Positions 38,422-40,142 of a stretch of DNA of 64,000 nucleotides are shown one piece after another (positions within the stretch are counted from its first letter, which is position 1; each line of letters begins with the position of its first letter). The stretch is taken from the NCBI GenBank assembly GCA_013152755.1, contig JAADFR010000008.1:1-64000 (forward strand), in the 5' to 3' direction. The stretch comes from Alphaproteobacteria bacterium (GTDB lineage: Bacteria; Pseudomonadota; Alphaproteobacteria; Sphingomonadales; Emcibacteraceae). Under the pieces are notes generated by a model, which searched no databases, was not told where the DNA came from, and saw only the letters and a list, made by a program, of their open reading frames with translations. The position numbers and the translations under genes were made by a program.

Positions 38422-38664
38422 ATGACCATAGCTAATCATCTTGTTGTCTTTTTTGTCTGTTGGTGGCTGATCTTTTTTATGGTCCTGCCCTTTGGTATTC
38501 AGGGCTTGCATGAAAGCGGCGAGGACTATGAGGATGGCATTGAACCCGGGGCCCCGGTCAAGGCCAATATTGGCCGAAAAATGCTGATTACCACCGGAAT
38601 AACCTTTGTGGTATGGGGCTTGTTCTGGGCTGCAGTAACCTTTGATCTGATTGGGGTCAGTTGA
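38422..38664 (+). CDS. DUF1467 family membrane protein
   Basis: MTIANHLVVFFVCWWLIFFMVLPFGIQ; position after mce as is typical in alphaproteobacteria. Confidence 0.85.
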   Translation: MTIANHLVVFFVCWWLIFFMVLPFGIQGLHESGEDYEDGIEPGAPVKANIGRKMLITTGITFVVWGLFWAAVTFDLIGVS

Positions 38665-38907
38665 TTGCTTTTTAGTGAATCGGGGCAATTTTTCTGTTTA
38701 AGGCATCAATAAATTCTGATTTTAGCCCCTTTTCCAAATATTTTTTTGGTCGTGAGAAGATGTGACAAAAATGCTTCTTTAGGGCTAAAAAGGAGATATA
38801 TCCTTGAATATATTACCCTTTTCCGCATTTTTTATACTGTTGCCAAAAAGACACAGTGTGCTTTTCATGTCAAAGCTAAGGCATTGTAAAATAAAGACAA
38901 TTTTTCC

Positions 38908-38937
38908 CTTGATTTCATAAGCTTTAGGCCTAAATAT
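38908..38937 (+). promoter_or_regulatory. candidate RpoH-type promoter for the putative sRNA
   Basis: CTTGAT (38908-38913) - 15 nt - CCTAAATAT (38929-38937); same layout as upstream of lon. Confidence 0.5.
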
Positions 38938-38942
38938 AGAGG

Positions 38943-39038
38943 AGAGGATACTCTTGGTGTAGGAGTATTTCTCTAGCCCTTCGTGGGCGTTTCCTCCCTA
39001 AACTTGGGCCACTCTGATTTTCAGAGTGGCTTTTTTTT
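38943..39038 (+). ncRNA. putative trans-acting sRNA with anti-Shine-Dalgarno loop (cuckoo/suhB/ar14-like)
   Basis: No ORF. Hairpin 1 with ATACTC/GAGTAT stem core; hairpin 2 GCCC-TTCGT-GGGC; hairpin 3 GTTT-CCTCCCT-AAAC (38989-39003); perfect 10-bp terminator GCCACTCTGA-TTT-TCAGAGTGGC-T8. Confidence 0.65.
39008..39038 (+). terminator. Rho-independent terminator
   Basis: GCCACTCTGA TTT TCAGAGTGGC TTTTTTTT. Confidence 0.95.
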
Positions 39039-39131
39039 ATTTGTGGCTTTTTTTATTATTGTGTGAGAAATATAGCTGAAATACGATCAACAAATGGAAT
39101 ATGTCCAAAATATTCTCAAGGAAGAAAAACA

Positions 39132-40142
39132 ATGACTGATTTTAAACAACGCATTTTCTCCGGTGTTCAACCCTCCGGCAATTTAACCCTCGGTAATTAT
39201 CTGGGGGCTATTCGTAACTGGGTGACGTTACAAAAAACATATGAGAGCATTTTCTGCGTTGTTGATCTTCATGCCATCACCGTCTGGCAGGACCCGGCCA
39301 TATTGCGGGACGCGACCCGTGAGGTTGCGGCGGGTATGATCGCCAGCGGCATTGATCCCAAAGAATGTATTATTTTTAACCAGTCACAGGTGCCGGGCCA
39401 TGCGGAACTGGCGTGGATTTTCAACTGTGTGGCACGCATGGGCTGGCTCAACCGTATGACCCAATTCAAGGAAAAGGCGGGCAAAAACCGGGAACGGGCC
39501 AGTGTGGGGCTTTATGTCTATCCCGACCTGATGGCGGCGGATATTCTGCTCTATAAGGCCACCCATGTGCCGGTGGGCGAGGACCAGAAACAGCATCTGG
39601 AACTGACCCGCGATATTGCTCAGAAGTTTAACAATGATTACGGCACGGATTTTTTTCCGATTACAGAACCATTGATTCTTGGGGAAGCCACGCGCGTTAT
39701 GTCTTTGCGGGACGGCAATGCGAAAATGAGCAAATCCGACCCGTCAGAAAACAGCCGTATTAACCTGACCGATGACCGGGATACTATCGCCCGGAAAATT
39801 AGAAAGGCCAAAACCGACAGCGAACCTATTGCCGCAACGGTTGAGGGGCTGGAAGGCCGCCTGGAAGCAAAAAATCTGATCAATATCTTTGCCGCCCTCA
39901 GCGACCGGCGGGCCGAGGATATTTGCGCCGAATATGGCGGTCAGGGGTTTGCCGCTTTTAAGAGTGATCTTGCGGAATTAAGCGTTTCCATTCTGGGGCC
40001 GATCACAGAGGAAATGAAACGGCTTTGTGATGAAAAAACCTATATTGATCAAATCCTTAAAGAAGGGTCAGAGAAGGCACGGGCTATTTCGGCACCCATA
40101 TTAAAAGATGTTCACAATATCGTGGGGTTCTTGCAATCTTGA
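39132..40142 (+). CDS. trpS: tryptophan--tRNA ligase
   Basis: [32 protein letters not shown] (KMSKS). Start set at MTDFKQ. Confidence 0.97.

Follow-up and report, generated by a model that had tools for sequence, protein, structure and literature searches.

An αR8 family small RNA gene with an additional 5′ hairpin lies upstream of trpS in an Emcibacteraceae genome

What is encoded in the gap between a DUF1467 gene (positions 38422-38664) and trpS (39132-40142)? The gap lies in a 64,000-nucleotide stretch of contig JAADFR010000008.1 (the window), part of a draft alphaproteobacterial genome of 2.9 Mb in 191 contigs. A first-pass annotation, made from the sequence alone, placed an ordered RNA module here, guessed that it was a member or diverged relative of the ar14/NfeR1, suhB or CcsR sRNA groups, and proposed an Rfam search and a covariation analysis as checks. 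The module is indeed present: a 138-nt stretch had a folding energy of -48.2 kcal/mol, compared with -33.7 ± 3.8 kcal/mol in shuffles (z = -3.8; 0 of 200 shuffles were as good). In an Rfam search of the whole window, the suhB/MmgR (αR8) model RF00519 matched 38969-39045 with 66.8 bits (E = 1.4e-11), over its gathering cut-off of 41 bits, and the alignment spanned positions 1 to 77 of the 77 in the model. The suhB part of the guess was therefore right, while no ar14/NfeR1, ar7 or CcsR model matched at E ≤ 10 in 38700-39200, where the next-best Rfam models fell far under their own cut-offs; CcsR may be without an Rfam model. The forward-strand sequence at 38943-39038, an sRNA gene of about 96 nt that is kept in relatives and has a putative 5′ end, is a clear member of the already known αR8 (MmgR/SisA, Rfam suhB) family. 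All αR8 structural features open to testing were found, namely, an above-threshold score over the full model, a single-stranded UUUCCUCCCU, a weak hairpin upstream of it, and a terminator directly after the core. The usual linkage of αR8 genes to an N-formylglutamate amidohydrolase (FGase) gene is absent, the immediate neighbors being DUF1467 and trpS. Such linkage is common but not defining, and in Caulobacter sisB-D are located elsewhere too (PMC12559287).

To characterize the structure, 22 distinct sequences from five genera were compared. Three helices were supported: a 5′ hairpin, the GCCC/GGGC hairpin and the terminator. Across these helices, 92.6% of cells were paired and 14 pairs showed changes on both sides; the covariation score was 0.49, while shuffles gave 0.25 ± 0.02 and sliding gave 0.09-0.15. 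The weak αR8 hairpin GCCC-TTCGT-GGGC (38976-38988, forward strand) was 100% paired, with a compensatory C-G to U-A change in 10 of the 22 sequences. It is followed by the αR8 decamer TTTCCTCCCT (38990-38999, forward strand), the anti-Shine-Dalgarno seed, which is invariant in the 22 sequences and identical to the SisA-D decamer. The core is followed by a Rho-independent terminator (39008-39038, forward strand), evident in the sequence and in a terminator scan, with a 10-bp stem (arms 39008-39017 and 39021-39030), a TTT loop and T8 at 39031-39038; 96.8% of its cells were paired, and compensatory changes were present. The first-pass annotation had described an ATACTC/GAGTAT first hairpin, the GCCC-TTCGT-GGGC hairpin and a perfect 10-bp terminator with T8, and all three lie where it placed them and covary. 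Conservation of the hairpins and of CCTCCCT in relatives, on which it had staked its reading, was likewise borne out.

A third hairpin, GTTT-CCTCCCT-AAAC, had been proposed to expose the anti-Shine-Dalgarno motif in its loop. The CCTCCCT motif is there, but the hairpin was rejected: the closing pair of the GUUU/AAAC helix cannot form in 10 of the 22 sequences, covariation is absent, shuffles score equally well, and the CCUCCCU stretch is unpaired in the Rfam consensus. Because this helix is unsupported, the anti-Shine-Dalgarno stretch is probably a single-stranded linker and not a hairpin loop. For a transcript starting at 38943, each base of UUUCCUCCCU was predicted to be 77-97% unpaired; with a start at 38939 instead, an upstream GAGG would be predicted to pair with part of the decamer.

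The 5′ hairpin, which the first-pass annotation had called simply a first hairpin, is the part that goes beyond the family. It occupies 38943-38974 (forward strand), and the Rfam model, beginning at 38969, leaves it out. Nine of its 12 pairs have changed on both sides with pairing kept, and RNAalifold agrees with the fold. Its apical sequence CTTGGTGTAGGA (38953-38964, forward strand) is nearly invariant by column entropy and occurs together with the core: in the 22 sequences the loop CUUGGUGUAGGA averages 0.08 bits per column, whereas the stem arms average 1.1 and 1.27. The pattern GGTGTAGG-(15-45)-TTTCCTCCCT was found once each in 24 of 33 genomes of the Emcibacteraceae-like family, across all five genera, and in 1 of 385 sampled genomes of the class, that one being the window's own (0 of the 384 others). 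In other families of the order the 5′ hairpins differ, some having C-rich loops such as GGUUUCCCCCC in family f7. By these sequence comparisons, the 5′ module is lineage specific. Occurrences of GGTGTAGG in Rhizobiales (loci L041, L048 and L051) were set aside; they sit in a promoter-like region outside any such hairpin.

The most probable role of the loop CUUGGUGUAGGA is to dock a protein or another RNA. A broader proposal is that the αR8 sRNA of this family gained a further functional part in the form of a 5′ hairpin, with a purine-rich loop that is near-invariant and a stem that is freely rewritten. Unlike the C-rich 5′ loops of a sister family, it would dock a conserved protein or a sponge or target RNA, giving a two-headed αR8 regulator with a dedicated promoter box of its own; we offer this tentatively, as a possibility just short of an even chance. 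Elsewhere in the genome, the loop complement CCTACACCAA occurs at three sites and CCTACACCA at four. One loop complement lies in a 3′ untranslated region with a terminator (L005), and it is rejected as a conserved sponge because only one close relative among 32 other family genomes shares the site. As a separate observation, CCTACACCA occurs at 5 sites in this genome, against 95 for the reversed pattern and about 22 that length alone would predict; a scarcity of CTA may be the cause.

Upstream of the gene, a putative promoter spans 38908-38939 (forward strand), with a -35 element CTTGAT (38908-38913) and a -10 element AAATAT within TAAATATAG (38931-38939); CTTG and TAAATATAG are kept in the upstream alignment, and the spacing is 17 bp from TTGATT. 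A strict sigma-70 consensus scan, using the E. coli consensus, misses it. Farther upstream, a conserved control region (38838-38895, forward strand) is kept in 25 family members while adjacent bases vary. It comprises TGTTGC (38838-38843), CACAGTGTG (38852-38860), GCTAAG (38875-38880) and ATTGTAAAATAAA (38883-38895), all on the forward strand. The pattern TGCnnnAAnnnCACAGTGTG matched in 8 of 13 genus g1 genomes, at a single site in each except one genome with two, and in the genus g1 genomes searched the CACAGTGTG block occurs almost nowhere but at the sRNA gene.

The RF00519 family is present in 75 of 81 genomes (the window's own and 80 relatives) and over the cut-off in 65. The named records with the sRNA are metagenome assemblies labeled Emcibacter, Kordiimonas, Sphingomonadales or unclassified Alphaproteobacteria. 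In family f6, the matches (L027, L028 and L086) carry CCTCTCCC in the core instead of CCTCCC, a variant αR8 seed. The gene order rnj-mce-DUF1467-sRNA-trpS is largely kept in genus g1. TrpS proteins (window 39132-40142; L009, L010, L012, L014, L018 and L019) are 47-55% identical between congeners, and the adjacent mce product is about 84% identical; sequence comparison suggests that trpS has been replaced in part of the genus.

Since trpS follows directly on the same strand in most genus g1 loci examined, the element might be read as a cis-acting trpS leader, a T-box-like element or trp attenuator, and not as an independent sRNA. However, a strong terminator closes it about 94 bp short of the trpS ATG, its match is to a trans-sRNA family, and it persists in place in many congeners whose TrpS is only 47-55% identical. 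In genera g2 to g4, moreover, the RNA turns up with its promoter block and hairpin separately from trpS, at loci (L021, L025 and L029) that lack trpS, DUF1467 and mce. On account of these trpS-free loci and of the element's own terminator, the leader reading was rejected, and we regard it as very improbable. A coding role for the 5′ hairpin, as a small LGVG-type peptide, is exceedingly unlikely and was also rejected: in some relatives a possible start lies in frame with CTT GGT GTA GGA, but the window and several relatives lack an in-frame start, CTT GGT GTA shows zero synonymous changes in the 22 sequences, and the changes in the two stem arms compensate each other.

The remaining alternative is an AbcR (αr15) sRNA, given that AbcR1/2 of S. 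meliloti (SmelC411/412) are listed among RF00519 matches (PMC2873474). The window copy, however, has just one αR8 decamer, along with the GCCC hairpin; the αr15 features of two anti-Shine-Dalgarno motifs and LysR/lsrB linkage were absent from this locus, with its one decamer and its DUF1467 and trpS neighbors. The genome also holds a better candidate, L003 (G000:C53:16587-16666), which adjoins a LysR-type regulator gene, has several CUCCCU-type motifs, and scores 37.1 bits against RF00519, under the cut-off. The AbcR assignment is thus highly unlikely for the window copy. A second αR8 copy in the same genome, L002 (G000:C3:38613-38693, minus strand, near a tRNA gene), scores 44 bits, over the cut-off, and keeps the decamer and terminator without the GCCC hairpin or the conserved 5′ hairpin. 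A weak αR8-like element with TTTTCCTCCCCAGACTTGGGC (L004, G000:C31:53478-53550, 27.8 bits) precedes an rnhB-like gene, after which comes a DNA methyltransferase gene.

The preferred reading, which we hold with high confidence, is a trans-acting αR8 sRNA with its own promoter and terminator. A sigma-70-like promoter would start a transcript of about 96 nt at approximately 38943, ending at the T8 terminator. By likeness to SisA, and with hfq encoded in the genome (108.9 bits), the RNA would be bound by Hfq. The single-stranded UUUCCUCCCU would then pair with several mRNAs at their Shine-Dalgarno regions, repressing their translation, while the 5′ hairpin would present its fixed loop to a partner. 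In Caulobacter, SisA pairs near the start codon of TonB-receptor and other mRNAs in an Hfq-dependent manner and represses them; for a TonB-receptor 5′ untranslated region, the pairing was shown by compensatory mutation and Hfq dependence, and CrfA sequesters SisA upon carbon starvation (PMC12559287). S. meliloti MmgR limits polyhydroxybutyrate (PHB) storage (PMC7143759). By analogy with SisA and from the candidate targets below, the repression of multiple mRNAs that the first-pass annotation proposed appears likely, and in all likelihood the RNA keeps transporter and metabolic mRNAs from being translated by masking their ribosome-binding sites.

The likely targets are TonB-dependent receptors along with further genes of envelope or energy functions. 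Perfect decamer complements occur at the start of several TonB-receptor genes in relatives. AGGGAGGAAA lies shortly before the ATG of 34 genes in 33 genomes, and 8 of these 34 carry a TonB Plug domain, compared with 0 of 18 genes with another purine-rich Shine-Dalgarno motif (Fisher p = 0.04, in a post hoc comparison pooled across genomes with one control motif), which suggests a small enrichment of TonB receptors. A candidate in the window's genome is petB (cytochrome b), whose start GGUUAGGGAGGAAAAAAUG forms a perfect 12-bp complement to the RNA at the ribosome-binding site (predicted -19.4 kcal/mol), one that is also present in three congeners (G011, G014 and G015). This complementarity could simply reflect a strong Shine-Dalgarno sequence. 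In a search for a CrfA-like sponge using exact 10-mers, AGGGAGGAAA occurred at only four sites outside the pair of αR8 genes, and no structured RNA was obvious at any of them.

Compared with known systems, the window RNA resembles AbcR1/AbcR2 (αr15) in its anti-Shine-Dalgarno CU-rich motif and in partial RF00519 similarity, but those RNAs have two such motifs and are LysR linked, and this genome has a separate AbcR-like locus. With MmgR of Sinorhizobium meliloti (αR8, SmelC689), it shares the RF00519 model, the anti-Shine-Dalgarno motif and the terminator, whereas MmgR is about 77 nt long and the window RNA, with its family-specific 5′ hairpin, would be about 96 nt. From the available part of the report on Caulobacter crescentus SisA-D (PMC12559287), three differences emerge: sisA adjoins the FGase gene, while the window RNA lies between DUF1467 and trpS; a CrfA-like sponge is known for SisA but was not found here among exact 10-mer complements; and no invariant 5′ loop like CUUGGUGUAGGA is described there, whereas the window RNA has one. 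The two systems are alike in the single-stranded UUUCCUCCCU after a weak hairpin, the Rho-independent terminator, the genomic paralogues and the presence of Hfq in the genome. The comparison carries the recently explained SisA/CrfA circuit, which acts in the carbon feast-to-famine transition, into a little-studied marine lineage. The αR8 family was already known; the lineage-specific 5′ module is what is added here and the part worth pursuing, and its conserved 12-nt loop and upstream promoter block could reveal how αR8 RNAs acquire lineage-specific partners and control.
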